A stretch of DNA of 33,397 nucleotides from an uncultured Bacilli bacterium (GTDB taxonomy: Bacteria > Bacillota_I > Bacilli_A > ML615J-28 > CAG-313), in assembly GCA_947627685.1 (NCBI GenBank), contig CANQWZ010000003.1, forward strand, positions 1-33,397, given 5' to 3'. Under the pieces are notes generated by a model, which was not told where the DNA came from, did no database searches, and was given only the letters and a program-made list of their open reading frames with translations. Positions 22,928 through 32,760 of the stretch are shown piece after piece. The position numbers and the translations under genes are program-made. Positions within the stretch are counted from its first letter, which is position 1. Each line of letters begins with the position of its first letter.

Positions 22928-24121
22928 TTATTTATCTGCAAGTTCATTAACATTTATATAATAGTTAGCACTAAAACCAGTTAATTTATTAGCTGTATTT
23001 TCATCAGATGTCTTATAATTTTTACCATTTATAATATCGCCATTCATTGAAACATAAAATCTTTCAATATTTAAACATTCATCTATTTTGTAACTAGTTA
23101 AAATAGAAAGTGTTCTTTGTTTTGAATAAAATCCATATAAAGAATATACTTTAACGTATTCTGAAAAATCGCTATCCTGTGGTGTTATTTTAGCATAAAC
23201 AACTAACTCAATACGTTTTATTTCAGGATAAATATCCCAATCTTCTTCTTTTGTTCTAGCTGCTTTTTCGATAATTGTTAGTAATCTTTGATTTTCTGGC
23301 TTAGCTAAATCTTCTTTTAAATAATCTTCACTATGTTTATATTTGTGTAAATTTTCTCTATTTATTGTACATTCAATTCTAAATTCATCTTCAAAAACTT
23401 CTTTTAGTGAAGTTACCTCAGTTGCTAAATTTTTAGTTATTTTTAAATTAACAGGATCTTCTTTAGGATCAATAAAATTATAAACAGCACTATTAGTTTC
23501 TTTTACTATTTCTCTTTTTTCAGCATTTTTAAATTTCTTAAAATCAAATTCATTAACTTTTACTGAATATTTTATTGAATAAACAGGCTTTTCACCTTTC
23601 TTTTGATAGGTAAGTTCTACATAAAGAATATCTGGTGTTTCATCAAATAAAATATGTTCTGTTTTTTCGTCTTCACTAAATTCTTTGTATTCTTTTGTGG
23701 CAAAAGGTGTACTACTAGTTGTTCCTGCAAATTGATTATAATCATAATCTGAAAAAGTTCTACTACTGTTTGCGGTATCATAATAGCGATAACTTTTTCT
23801 AACCGTTCTTGCTGCAATATAAACTTTAACATTTTCCATTGGTTGGGCTGTAACTAGTTTAACCATTTGAACTTGAATTTCAAATGTTGCTTTTTCATGT
23901 TCACCTATTTGTGTTGTTGTTCCTGTTTGATATTTCGAATCTCTTTCTTCTACTTCTCTTACTAAGACTGCGAAATTATCATCATATGGTAAGTCTTGAT
24001 AATTTTCAAAACGTTTATCGACATTTCTATTAAAAACTAACAATATTATGCCAAATAAAACTAAAGTAAAAACAACAATTATTATTATTTTTAGTTTGGT
24101 TGCTATTTTTTTAGTTTCCAT
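22928..24121 (-). CDS. Uncharacterised protein with an N-terminal TM anchor, divergent from dnaA
   Basis: METKKIATKLKIIIIVVFTLVLFGIILLVF TM segment, then a ~360-aa soluble domain. Start taken at the second ATG (24121). Confidence 0.65.
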   Translation of the reverse strand: METKKIATKLKIIIIVVFTLVLFGIILLVFNRNVDKRFENYQDLPYDDNFAVLVREVEERDSKYQTGTTTQIGEHEKATFEIQVQMVKLVTAQPMENVKVYIAARTVRKSYRYYDTANSSRTFSDYDYNQFAGTTSSTPFATKEYKEFSEDEKTEHILFDETPDILYVELTYQKKGEKPVYSIKYSVKVNEFDFKKFKNAEKREIVKETNSAVYNFIDPKEDPVNLKITKNLATEVTSLKEVFEDEFRIECTINRENLHKYKHSEDYLKEDLAKPENQRLLTIIEKAARTKEEDWDIYPEIKRIELVVYAKITPQDSDFSEYVKVYSLYGFYSKQRTLSILTSYKIDECLNIERFYVSMNGDIINGKNYKTSDENTANKLTGFSANYYINVNELADK

Positions 24122-24195
24122 AATCCACCTCATTGTATTTTATTTTATCATATTATTTGTTGTTTTGCAAGTTAAATAACATTTTTATTATTTTT

Positions 24196-24280
24196 TTATC
24201 AACTTATCCAAAATGTGGATAAAATGTTTATTTTTTATCTATTTTTATTGTGGAAAAAATGTGGATAACTATGTGGAAAA
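24196..24280. other. oriC DnaA-box cluster upstream of dnaA
   Basis: Two perfect TGTGGATAA boxes (24214-24222, 24260-24268) plus near matches: TTATCAACT 24196-24204, TTATCCAAA 24204-24212, TGTGGAAAA 24249-24257 and 24272-24280. Confidence 0.85.
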
Positions 24281-24343
24281 GAAAATATACTAACTGCTTT
24301 AATTTTTTCGTAAAATATGTTATCATATTTTGGAGGTGATTTT

Positions 24344-25820: not shown

Positions 25821-26957
25821 ATGAAATTTATAATCGAAAGAGAATTGCTACTTTCAACTTTACAAAACGTATCTAAAGGCCTATCGCAAAAAACACCAAT
25901 GCCTGTTCTTACTGGTATTTACATTTCAGTAAATGAAGATAAAATTACTTTTATTACCACAAATAAGGAGATTGCGGTAAAGATAGAACTTGAAAAAAGT
26001 GAAAAAGTTAGACTTTACGAAACAGGAGAATGTGTTGTTCCAGGCAAGTACTTTTTAGACATTGTAAGAAAAGTAGAAGGCAAAGATGTTGATTTTACTT
26101 TATTTGAAAAAAATTCTATTAAAATTTTATCTGATCGTTCGGACTTCACACTAGTAGCTTATGATAAAACAGATTATCCTAAAACCAATTTTTTAACCGA
26201 TGTAACGCCGATAATATTTGATAGTAAAGAGTTAAAACAAATTGTTAGAGAAACTTCGTTCGCTTGCGCATCAGCAGAAACAAGAATTGCCTTCACAAGA
26301 ATCGTTTTGTCTAGTTTGAATTTTAAAGCCAAAAATGGCCTATTAGAGATAGTTGCAACAGATAGCTTTAGACTTGCTAAGAAAGTTTCAAAAATCGCAA
26401 CAGATGTCGAAATTAACGTTAATATTCCAAGCAAATCATTAGATGAGTTTTGTAAGATTTTAGACGAAGAATCAACCGTTGTTAAAGTATATTTAGAAAA
26501 TAGCAAAGTTATTTTTGAATATAAAAATATTGTTTTTGTTACAAGATTAATAGAAGGAAATTATCCCGATACTTCAAGTTTGTTCCCTAACGAATCACTA
26601 TTTGTTGCTGAATTTGATCGTAACGAATTAATAAACGCTGTTGATAGAGCATCATTATTTAACAATTCAGAGAGTGTAAACATCGTCAAATTTAGTTTTA
26701 CAAGTGCAAACAAAGCTGAAATTTCTTCTAATTCAACTGAAATTGGTAAAGTTGTAGAAGAGATTTATTTAGAAAATAACTTAGAAAACGTTAATTTTCA
26801 AACAGCTTTTAGCACAAAATATCTTTTAGAGGCTCTAAGAGCGTTTGAAAAAGATAAAGTTAGTCTTTATTTTACTGGTGAAATTAAGCCAGCTTTAATA
26901 AAAGAGCAAGAAAATGATACACTTACTCAGTTGTTGCTTCCAGTAAGAGTTTTTTAA
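25821..26957 (+). CDS. dnaN: DNA polymerase III subunit beta (sliding clamp)
   Basis: MKFIIERELLLSTLQNVSKGLSQKTPMPVLTGIYI. C-terminal TQLLLPVRVF. Position after dnaA. Confidence 0.96.
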   Translation: MKFIIERELLLSTLQNVSKGLSQKTPMPVLTGIYISVNEDKITFITTNKEIAVKIELEKSEKVRLYETGECVVPGKYFLDIVRKVEGKDVDFTLFEKNSIKILSDRSDFTLVAYDKTDYPKTNFLTDVTPIIFDSKELKQIVRETSFACASAETRIAFTRIVLSSLNFKAKNGLLEIVATDSFRLAKKVSKIATDVEINVNIPSKSLDEFCKILDEESTVVKVYLENSKVIFEYKNIVFVTRLIEGNYPDTSSLFPNESLFVAEFDRNELINAVDRASLFNNSESVNIVKFSFTSANKAEISSNSTEIGKVVEEIYLENNLENVNFQTAFSTKYLLEALRAFEKDKVSLYFTGEIKPALIKEQENDTLTQLLLPVRVF

Positions 26958-26967
26958 TTGAAACAAA

Positions 26968-26997
26968 TAAAAAAAGCACCTTAATGGTGCTTTTTTT
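26968..26997. terminator. Bidirectional intrinsic terminator between dnaN and parA
   Basis: AAAAAGCACC / GGTGCTTTTT stem with TTAAT loop and flanking A/T tracts. Confidence 0.9.
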
Positions 26998-27005
26998 ATG
27001 CTTTT

Positions 27006-27794
27006 TTAGTCTAAATTGATGTCTTTAAAGATAGAAATAAGGTCTTTTTTTATTTCATCGAAGTTCTTTTGATGGAATCTGTCCTTCATTGGCTTATTAT
27101 CGAAGACAGAAGTGCCTTCTGCTTGGATGTTTTTTATTTCGGCTTTATCCTTGACTGGAACCGTCATTTCGGCCTTTGGAAGCATCACTTTTGCTTGTTC
27201 TTTTAGCTCTTTCAAACAGTTCATCGGAGCACGTCTTCCTTTGATGTATCCGACCGGTACAATGTACCTAATTTTGTCCAAATCGATGTCAGTATCGACA
27301 AAATATTGAATTGTGTTCGAAAAACCTTGTAAACCAAGCGTGTCTAAACCGACAACAATTAAAATTGATTGACTGATGTCGAGCAAAATTTCGCTCAATC
27401 TGCTGCTTGAAGGCGGAAAATCGATAAAAATATAGTCGAAAAATTTGGTAAAACTCTCAATTATCTGCCTCAAATGCTTTTCTTCGGACCTTTTGAGCGT
27501 TAAATTCAAAGAAAGCCTATCTGTATTTAAGGTTTTCATTAAATACATATTTATTCTTGCTTCAAATGTGATGTCTTGAGGCTCTTTTTCACCCACAAGC
27601 AAATGTTCGAAGAAATCATCATCACGATCAGTAACAAAATGGTCAACGCCGAAAATTTTAAAAATACTATTTTGATCATCAGCGCTAATAACTAAAACGG
27701 TTTTTCCTTGAGTTGCGTAGTAATGAGCGAGATAGCCAAGGAATGTAGTCTTGCCAACTCCGCCCTTTTTACAGAATGCAGAAATGATTGGCAT
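27006..27794 (-). CDS. ParA/MinD-family partition ATPase
   Basis: Deviant Walker A (KKGGVGKTTFLGYLAHYYA), Walker B FDYIFIDFPPSSS. No N-terminal HTH extension. TAATG overlap with the upstream gene. Confidence 0.9.
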   Translation of the reverse strand: MPIISAFCKKGGVGKTTFLGYLAHYYATQGKTVLVISADDQNSIFKIFGVDHFVTDRDDDFFEHLLVGEKEPQDITFEARINMYLMKTLNTDRLSLNLTLKRSEEKHLRQIIESFTKFFDYIFIDFPPSSSRLSEILLDISQSILIVVGLDTLGLQGFSNTIQYFVDTDIDLDKIRYIVPVGYIKGRRAPMNCLKELKEQAKVMLPKAEMTVPVKDKAEIKNIQAEGTSVFDNKPMKDRFHQKNFDEIKKDLISIFKDINLD

Positions 27795-28153
27795 TATCTA
27801 ACACCTTCTCTCGCTAATTTTTCACGGCAAGCATCCTCTACAAACTTAGCAAACATAATTCCACGTGTTGCACAAGCAATTTTTATTTGTCTTCTTAATG
27901 CAATATCCATTGTTGATGTGTATTTTTCTCTGTTTGCATCATCAGGTTGATAATATTGTTGTCTTTGCTGCTGTCTTACTGGTCTTTGCACCGTTTGTTT
28001 AGGTTGTTGTCTTACTACTGGAGCTACTTCTTCATAAAATTCTTGTTCTTCGACTACTTCGGGCTCAGTTTTTACAATCTCAGGCTCTTTTTCTTCCTCA
28101 GTTACTCTTGGAACGTCAAATGGGTTTCTTCTTTTAATTGGTTGATTATTCAT
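27794..28153 (-). CDS. Small DNA-binding protein: disordered Glu/Gln-rich N-terminus plus ribbon-helix-helix C-terminus; candidate centromere-binding partner of ParA
   Basis: C-terminal EKYTSTMDIALRRQIKIACATRGIMFAKFVEDACREKL fits an RHH beta-alpha-alpha pattern. Translationally coupled to parA (TAATG). Confidence 0.7.
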   Translation of the reverse strand: MNNQPIKRRNPFDVPRVTEEEKEPEIVKTEPEVVEEQEFYEEVAPVVRQQPKQTVQRPVRQQQRQQYYQPDDANREKYTSTMDIALRRQIKIACATRGIMFAKFVEDACREKLAREGVR

Positions 28154-28180
28154 AACTAACTACCTCCTATCAACAATTAA

Positions 28181-28209
28181 ATGATAACACAAACCCAAAA
28201 ATTATGCAA
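28181..28209 (-). promoter_or_regulatory. Putative promoter of the RHH-parA operon
   Basis: Minus-strand TTGCAT (28204-28209) - 17 bp - TATCAT (28181-28186) upstream of AGGAGGTA and the ATG. Confidence 0.55.
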
Positions 28210-28651
28210 TTTTTTTGCAATATTTATTTACATAACTAATTAAATATAACCATATTTATTGTAATGAGTCAAAAAACTAAAAAATCTAAAAATAACGATT
28301 TTGTTAAAAAGAATGAGAAAAACATTTCAAAAAACTCTTTAAAAACAAAAAATGAAGTCAAAAAAAGCCTTAAAAATCGATTTTTCAAAAAAAAATGAAA
28401 AATTATTAACCCCCGGGGGGTCAAAGTCAAAAAAACCACGATTTTCAAAAAAGCTGTTTTCACTCGAAAAATTAGGATTTTCATCGTGTTGAACAAGATT
28501 TTTGTTTAATATGTAAATATGTAAATACATAAAAAGAAAGTCAAACAGTCTTAGTGCTTAGCAGTAACAATTTTGAAATCAAAACAAAAAAGTTTTAAAT
28601 ATGAATTCATCAATATTTTATTTTAAAATTAAAAGTAATTATTTTTATTGT

Positions 28652-28858
28652 AAACTAAAATTAATGTTTTTAGTTTTAATTTAAAAACAATTTTTGAGTA
28701 ATAATATCGATTTTCAAACTAAAAACTTTTTTGTTAAAACCAAAATAGTCGAATTTTTTACGATTGTTATTAAATTAAAACTAAAAACTTTTAAAATTAT
28801 TTAATTTAAAACATTAATTTTATTGGTATTTAAGTTTTAAACTAAAAGTTTTTAGTTT
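28652..28858. repeat. AAACTAAAA motif array
   Basis: Forward copies at 28652, 28716, 28778, 28839 (spacing 64, 62, 61). Inverted copies at 28668 and 28850. Confidence 0.6.
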
Positions 28859-28871
28859 TAAAAGTATCATT

Positions 28872-28915
28872 TTATACATAAAAGAATAAAAAAATAATTA
28901 CTCTTTTATGTATAA
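28872..28915. repeat. Perfect 14-bp inverted repeat with 16-nt spacer
   Basis: TTATACATAAAAGA (28872-28885) / TCTTTTATGTATAA (28902-28915). Confidence 0.85.
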
Positions 28916-29475
28916 GAATAAAATAATAAATATTTATAATTTAAAAACTTTTAAAATAAAATAAAAAATGACATCTCAAACTATAAAATGTAAATATGTT
29001 TATAAGTAATTATGTATAAAAATAATTATGTAGATAAATATCAAAAATTAAATATTTAAATAAATAAGTTTATATTTATTAACGTATTTAAATCAATAAT
29101 TAAAAAAACATTTAAAGTTTTATTTAAAATAATAAAAGAATAAATATTTTTTTATTATTTTAAATAAAATAATAATACTTATAATATCAAAGTATTAAAA
29201 AAAACGACGTTTTTTACAAAAAAATCTTAATTTTAAATGATTTTAAGAATGCTGTTATTTTTAAAAAATAAAAAATATTTTTATATTATATATAAAATAA
29301 GGAATATACATAAATACATAAAAATTAACAAAAAACAGCTTTAAAAGTTGCAAACGTCGTTTTTTTGATAGGAAAAAATCGAAAAACAAAAAGATTGGTT
29401 TAGGCGAAGTTTTTGGACGGGAAAACGACATTTTTTTGGAAATTTTTTAAGGTTAAAAAATCGAGGTCAAAACCA

Positions 29476-29504
29476 TTGAAAAAAACTTAAAAATGTGATA
29501 TAAT
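29476..29504 (+). promoter_or_regulatory. Promoter of the yaaA-recF-gyrB-gyrA operon
   Basis: TTGAAA (29476-29481) - 17 bp - TATAAT (29499-29504), with TGn extended -10. Confidence 0.85.
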
Positions 29505-29527
29505 TTAGATGTTAAATGAGGTGTTTT

Positions 29528-29738
29528 ATGGAAGTCGTAAAAATTTCAACTGAAAGCATAAAATTAGGTCAATTCTTAAAGCTAATTGGTGCTGTTTCTA
29601 CCGGTGGTGAAACTAGGGATTTTTTAATAAAAAACACAATAAAAATCAATCAAAAAGAAGAAAATCAGCGTGGAAAAAAGATATTTTTGGGGGATTTTTT
29701 AGAAATTAATGGTAAAAAATATCTTATTGAGGCTAAAA

Positions 29739-29752
<14 letters not shown>
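29528..29752 (+). CDS. yaaA: S4-domain RNA-binding protein YaaA/RlbA-like
   Basis: ISTESIKLGQFLKLIGAVSTGGETRDFLIKNTIKINQKEENQRGKKIFLGD S4 pattern, directly upstream of recF. Start at the ATG at 29528 behind GAGGTG. Confidence 0.92.

Positions 29753-32760
<3,008 letters not shown>

Follow-up and report, generated by a model that had tools for sequence, protein, structure and literature searches.

Introduction

In the ParF/ParG/parH system of plasmid TP228, ParG binds as ribbon-helix-helix (RHH) dimers to tetramer boxes that are separated by AT-rich spacers, and its tail activates ParA (PMC7308502); in the delta/omega system of pSM19035 omega binds as RHH dimers to gapless heptads in either orientation and also activates ParA via its tail (PMC9499535). 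SegAB from archaea is the known chromosomal segregation system that consists of ParA and an RHH protein (PMC12284271; PMC9178275). According to a review from 2016 every centromere-binding protein known from a bacterial chromosomal partition system belongs to the helix-turn-helix (HTH) class, and in the open-access literature we found no bacterial chromosomal ParA-RHH equivalent. Here, we describe a parA-rhh module and an adjoining array of 8-bp sites (octamers) at the replication origin (oriC) of an uncultured Bacilli bacterium, located on a stretch of 33,397 nucleotides (positions 1 to 33,397 of contig CANQWZ010000003.1, assembly GCA_947627685.1; "the window"). We are confident, short of certainty, that a whole order of uncultured Bacilli has in this locus its resident system for partitioning the chromosome (origin), an RHH centromere-binding protein having replaced ParB-parS. 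It is also probable that throughout this order the chromosome is segregated via ParA and the RHH protein on the octamer array at oriC, with neither ParB-parS nor SMC-ScpAB involved, which would make the system the bacterial counterpart of SegAB and a counter-example to the all-HTH statement. What appears to be new is that plasmid-type parts would serve as an order-wide chromosomal system.

The module resembles delta/omega in its HTH-less ParA, its RHH partner with a basic flexible tail and its gapless short repeats, which occur in both orientations and overlap the par promoters (PMC9499535). However, delta/omega is plasmid-borne and its 7-bp WATCACW repeats form runs of 7-10, whereas the system of the window is chromosomal and its octamers form islands of 2-6 over ~1-2.7 kb at oriC. 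With TP228 it shares an RHH protein with a flexible N-terminal tail, which in TP228 bears an arginine-finger motif (PMC7308502). TP228 differs in being a plasmid, in the sequence of its 4-bp parH boxes and in ParF, which is shorter and, in the fold search, more distant (template modelling (TM) score ~0.6). Although SegAB is chromosomal, it is archaeal and SegB recognizes 13-bp TCTAGA-S-TCTAGA palindromes at sites dispersed along the chromosome, in contrast to the single oriC array of ATACATAA described here. A profile search of the PDB gave no SegB match for the RHH family of the window, and the repeats found are ATACATAA rather than TCTAGA palindromes, no genome-wide search for TCTAGA sites having been made. 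Chromosomal ParABS (Soj/Spo0J/parS) has a ParA ATPase near oriC as well, but in the order of the window no HTH/CTPase ParB, no clustered parS and no SMC were found, the canonical soj lies separately in an mnmG-rsmG-soj string, and neither a ParB_N gene beside soj nor parS near oriC was detected.

The Type Ib-like family of plasmid systems combines a short ParA without N-terminal HTH, an adjacent small RHH protein with a flexible tail and, at the par promoter, a centromere made of short tandem repeats. All three are present here, the array being the candidate centromere. As the module lies inside the dnaA-dnaN-recF-gyrB cluster and not on a plasmid, it would work like this family without being one of its plasmid members.

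The proteins of the module

In the window dnaA and dnaN are followed by parA and rhh on the opposite strand, AT-rich non-coding DNA, yaaA, recF, gyrB and the start of gyrA (Table 1). The two-gene operon rhh-parA is convergent to dnaN and its stop and start codons overlap as TAATG. Thus, the cassette between dnaN and yaaA is as an earlier reading of this DNA (hereafter, the sequence-only reading) had described it, and the ~1.35 kb of non-coding DNA noted beside it measure 1362 bp.

ParA consists of 262 amino acids (aa), its Walker A motif begins at residue 8-10, and it matches AAA_31 in Pfam (E=2e-23). The predicted fold (pLDDT, i.e. predicted local distance difference test, of 88) has its best PDB matches in Soj, McdA, ParA and delta, and the fold search also returns delta 2oze and ParF, all in keeping with the short, HTH-less ParA that had been proposed. 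Throughout the order CKKGGVGK and DDQNS are invariant in the alignment, and DFPP is nearly so.

The 119-aa product of rhh has no Pfam match on its own, but the profile of its family matches the RHH protein 2kel at 9e-8, other family members match RHH_3, 56B_RHH and Omega_Repress, and the structure model places the RHH helices at residues 84-97 and 101-116. Judged by profile and model it is an RHH protein, as the sequence-only reading had suspected. The family has a flexible linker of variable length and, at the N-terminus, a nearly constant KRxNPF/L motif, which reads KRRNPF in the protein of the window.

Distant relatives of ParA (41-48%) occur in metagenome-assembled genomes (MAGs) of Clostridia with no origin genes nearby. 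In these loci (L136-L145) the related ParA is preceded by a KRTNPL-headed partner, lies away from the oriC genes, and ParB is also encoded in the genome. As partners of the same ParA family start with the same motif, the motif is probably tied to the contact with ParA. Most of the Clostridial partners have a C-terminal end that, by eye, resembles a degenerate RHH; in the partner from L145 no RHH is visible and the protein ends with a lysine-rich stretch.

ParB, parS and SMC in the order

Our sample of the order comprises 43 genomes. ParB_N has no match in the window genome and weak matches (E 4e-4 to 3e-11) in 8 of the 43, whereas most sister families of the class reach 1e-28 to 1e-38. No Spo0J/Noc-type ParB was found across the order. 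Allowing one mismatch, parS (TGTTTCACGTGAAACA) is absent from the window genome and occurs in five order genomes as a single isolated 1-mismatch site, never more than one per genome, while clustered parS is present in many genomes of sister families. No full-length SMC scored near the cut-off in the 43 genomes (up to 12 candidates scored per genome), and neither ScpA, apart from one weak match below the cut-off in G030, nor MukB was found in the order. It is unlikely that MAG incompleteness causes absences common to 43 genomes. ScpA was likewise not found in the sampled genomes of families f4, f7, f10 and f13 of the class, i.e. its loss is not unique to the order. With Spo0J and SMC missing, some other origin segregator is to be expected.

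In 23 loci mnmG, rsmG and soj still stand together in the canonical order, and in none of these does parB follow soj; the next gene is a small conserved DUF951-like, an MscS-like or another gene. Hence, the sequence-only idea of a module that replaced ParABS holds as far as the missing ParB and parS and the resident, order-wide module are concerned, but it has to be corrected in that the canonical soj, a second ParA-type gene separate from that of the window, remains without parB. Neither the window genome nor the order yielded the canonical parB/spo0J or clustered parS that would have spoken against the idea.

Examples of soj kept without parB or noc are L098:10094-10876 and L147-L166. The genomes with weak ParB_N matches are G004, G009, G011, G022, G026, G029, G033 and G034; the frames have 180-447 aa and are perhaps of plasmid or phage type. 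In several f7 and f10 genomes ParB matches are weak or missing, and other segregation solutions may exist there.

A phased octamer array beside rhh

The non-coding region has a GC content of 17% overall and 11% at its lowest. In the rhh-yaaA regions of 37 loci the words with the strongest enrichment include TACATA, ATACATA and TACATAA, and we defined the sites by the cores TACATA/TATGTA within the octamers ATACATAA/TTATGTAT, which occur in both orientations. Whether they lie on one strand or on opposite strands, the cores are spaced by 8 bp or an exact multiple of it. At a same-strand lag of 8 there are 88 pairs as compared to 0.4 after shuffling, lags of 16, 24, 32 and 40 being high too, and the opposite-strand lags -8 and +8 give 37 and 50 pairs versus less than 1. 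In 55 kb of array regions 390 of the 452 core pairs 8-40 bp apart are in phase, whereas 593 kb of flanks hold 39 such pairs in all (23 in phase), and runs of at least two octamers number 280 in the array regions versus 22 in the flanks. The window region has 10 sites, with all six close pairs in phase, a result that 0 of 2000 shuffles equalled, and two of the three matches to the tandem pattern in the window genome fall within it. Shuffles and flank control thus rule out chance repeats of AT-rich DNA.

Taking the loci together, sites are densest in the first 100 bp from the rhh start, dwindle to almost none at 200-300 bp and are back from 400 bp. The same octamers cover the rhh promoter and the rest of the region; in the window the site at 28228-28235 adjoins the putative promoter. 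In g8, a divergent genus, the cores read ACCATA and TACATT instead and the 8-bp lag is kept, as expected for a register imposed by a protein. Arrays phased in this way are of the kind bound by RHH partition proteins, which strengthens the earlier proposal that the AT-rich DNA contains the centromere. The stretch without sites, at 200-330 bp from rhh, contains a conserved element, TTTAAATCGATTTTT...GTAAAGTTATTANCCCCCGGGGG, in the window and related loci. A simple pattern recognizes it in 14 of the 37 loci, and it is also visible in a wider alignment. Its G/C part in the window resembles a minus-strand terminator. Neither this element nor any other part of the window matches an RNA family in Rfam.

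The neighbourhood of the array might suggest that the main task of RHH-ParA is to control the initiation of replication at oriC, in the manner of Soj and DnaA in B. subtilis, the array then being an element for regulation or unwinding rather than a centromere. Indeed, the module adjoins dnaA-dnaN and the DnaA-box cluster, DNA as AT-rich as that of the array could melt easily, and a separate conserved element lies within the region. However, the DnaA boxes cluster before dnaA, where TTATCCACA with at most one mismatch occurs at 5 sites in 24134-24316 (2 exact; ~0 expected), and they are scarce in the array region of most loci. For most loci we thus rejected the AT-rich region as main DnaA-box cluster, but several boxes lie inside it in the f2 loci L081, L086 and L092. 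Moreover, sites that keep strictly to an 8-bp phase on either strand suit RHH operators or centromeres better than an unwinding element, and a primary role in initiation would leave the lack of Spo0J and SMC unaccounted for. We regard this explanation as unlikely.

Alternatively, another protein, nucleoid-associated or an initiator, may bind the array while the RHH protein regulates only its own operon. The contact between RHH protein and array is deduced, and some sites are at least 1.5 kb away from the operon. Yet the rhh promoter and the region at large carry identical octamers, and there is no consistent linkage to another candidate DNA-binding gene. We hold this to be improbable, and favour the array as centromere of the RHH protein.

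Inheritance of the module

The RHH protein is present in 37 of the 43 order genomes, and 38 have a close match (48-100%) to ParA. In all 38 genomes with dnaN assembled parA directly follows dnaN, and all loci fetched read dnaA-dnaN-<parA<rhh and then yaaA or recF and gyrB, as far as the contigs extend. The five genomes without the module (G010, G011, G013, G014, G037) also lack dnaN, i.e. their apparent absences are due to assembly gaps, and in G007 ParA is present and followed by a gap. Outside the order the RHH protein has a single, weak match (G053, E=0.003) inside a 382-aa frame. The distances among the ParAs follow those among the GyrBs (r=0.90) no less closely than DnaN follows DnaA (0.74), suggesting vertical inheritance, and comparisons with plasmids and phages revealed no close relative. 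According to these sequence comparisons the module is old and resident and has been passed on vertically. The synteny excludes a sporadic cassette and, together with the congruence and the comparisons with plasmids and phages, a recent plasmid integration, the outcomes against which the sequence-only reading had wanted relatives checked. Although the best-studied ParA-RHH pairs are plasmid systems and ParA families are widespread on plasmids, a domesticated partition cassette from a plasmid or integrative and conjugative element, kept as incompatibility defence or relic without housekeeping role, is highly improbable in view of the conserved position, the GyrB congruence, plasmid ParAs that are less than 30% identical to ParA of the window (best listed), the conserved catalytic motifs and an array maintained order-wide.

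The order is found among MAGs recorded as Acholeplasmatales, Acholeplasmataceae, Mollicutes or Bacilli, many of them from gut, rumen and digesters.

Proposed mechanism

The order-wide position, the phased array and the lack of ParB/parS support the chromosomal segregation system that the sequence-only reading had suggested, a function that we infer. By analogy to ParG and omega, the RHH protein may dimerise and bind the octamers between rhh and yaaA cooperatively, building a partition complex directly at oriC, and at the promoter-proximal island it may repress its own operon. Its flexible tail, headed by KRxNPF/L, would then touch nucleoid-bound ParA-ATP and stimulate hydrolysis, so that sister origins would trail the receding ParA by a diffusion ratchet, as in other ParA systems. 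In this way the module would stand in for Spo0J-parS, which the lineage appears to have lost along with Noc, SMC and ScpA.

Several points weigh against a partition system of this kind. The array is assigned to the RHH protein by position, promoter overlap and precedent, and RHH binding, ParA ATPase activity and localisation in members of the order are predictions from sequence. Sites are sparser in the window's own family than in family f2, and L062, L063, L067 and the truncated L061 have no in-phase pair of strong cores. The retained soj could have a segregation role of its own. Finally, as the Clostridial homologues lie off oriC in genomes with ParB, segregating the chromosome is not the main duty of this ParA family in every case.

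If the proposal is true, a central machine of chromosome segregation can be exchanged for a plasmid-like one, with ParB, Noc and SMC-ScpA lost. As the genomes of the order appear to do without both ParB and SMC, they would be a natural test of the roles of ParB beyond tethering, e.g. spreading as CTP clamp and SMC loading, and the parts of the system are small enough to be reconstituted.

Features of the locus

Table 1. Coordinates of genes and sequence elements around the parA-rhh module (positions in the window)
Feature	Position	Strand	Remarks
DnaA-box cluster before dnaA, likely DnaA-binding part of oriC	24134-24316	.	1-mismatch scan
dnaA	24317-25720	+	
dnaN	25821-26957	+	
Bidirectional terminator separating convergent dnaN and parA	26967-26999	.	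14-bp stem, T tails on both strands
parA	27006-27794	-	262 aa, predicted deviant Walker-A ATPase without N-terminal HTH
rhh	27794-28153	-	119 aa; N-terminal KRRNPF, disordered linker, predicted C-terminal RHH at ~residues 76-117
Non-coding AT-rich region, candidate centromere	28154-29515	.	17% GC, 10 TACATA/TATGTA sites
Putative rhh-parA promoter	28228-28272	-	TTGACT-18-TATATT at 28272-28243, consensus match only
Conserved site-free element TTAAAAATCGATTTTT...TTATTAACCCCCGGGGGG	28365-28455	.	Simple pattern, wider alignment
Octamer triplet ATATGTAA-ATATGTAA-ATACATAA	28509-28532	.	Contiguous; one tandem-pattern match
Octamer pair 32 bp apart	28874-28913	.	Cores at 28875, 28907
Octamer pair 16 bp apart	29010-29033	.	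Cores at 29011, 29027
Octamer doublet ATACATAA-ATACATAA	29306-29321	.	Contiguous; one tandem-pattern match
yaaA	29516-29752	+	
recF	29709-30818	+	
gyrB	30820-32760	+	
gyrA, start only	32771 onwards		Open at window end

The gene at 22928-24133, located before dnaA, encodes 401 aa without NCBIfam match; it is fast-evolving and confined to the loci of family f1.
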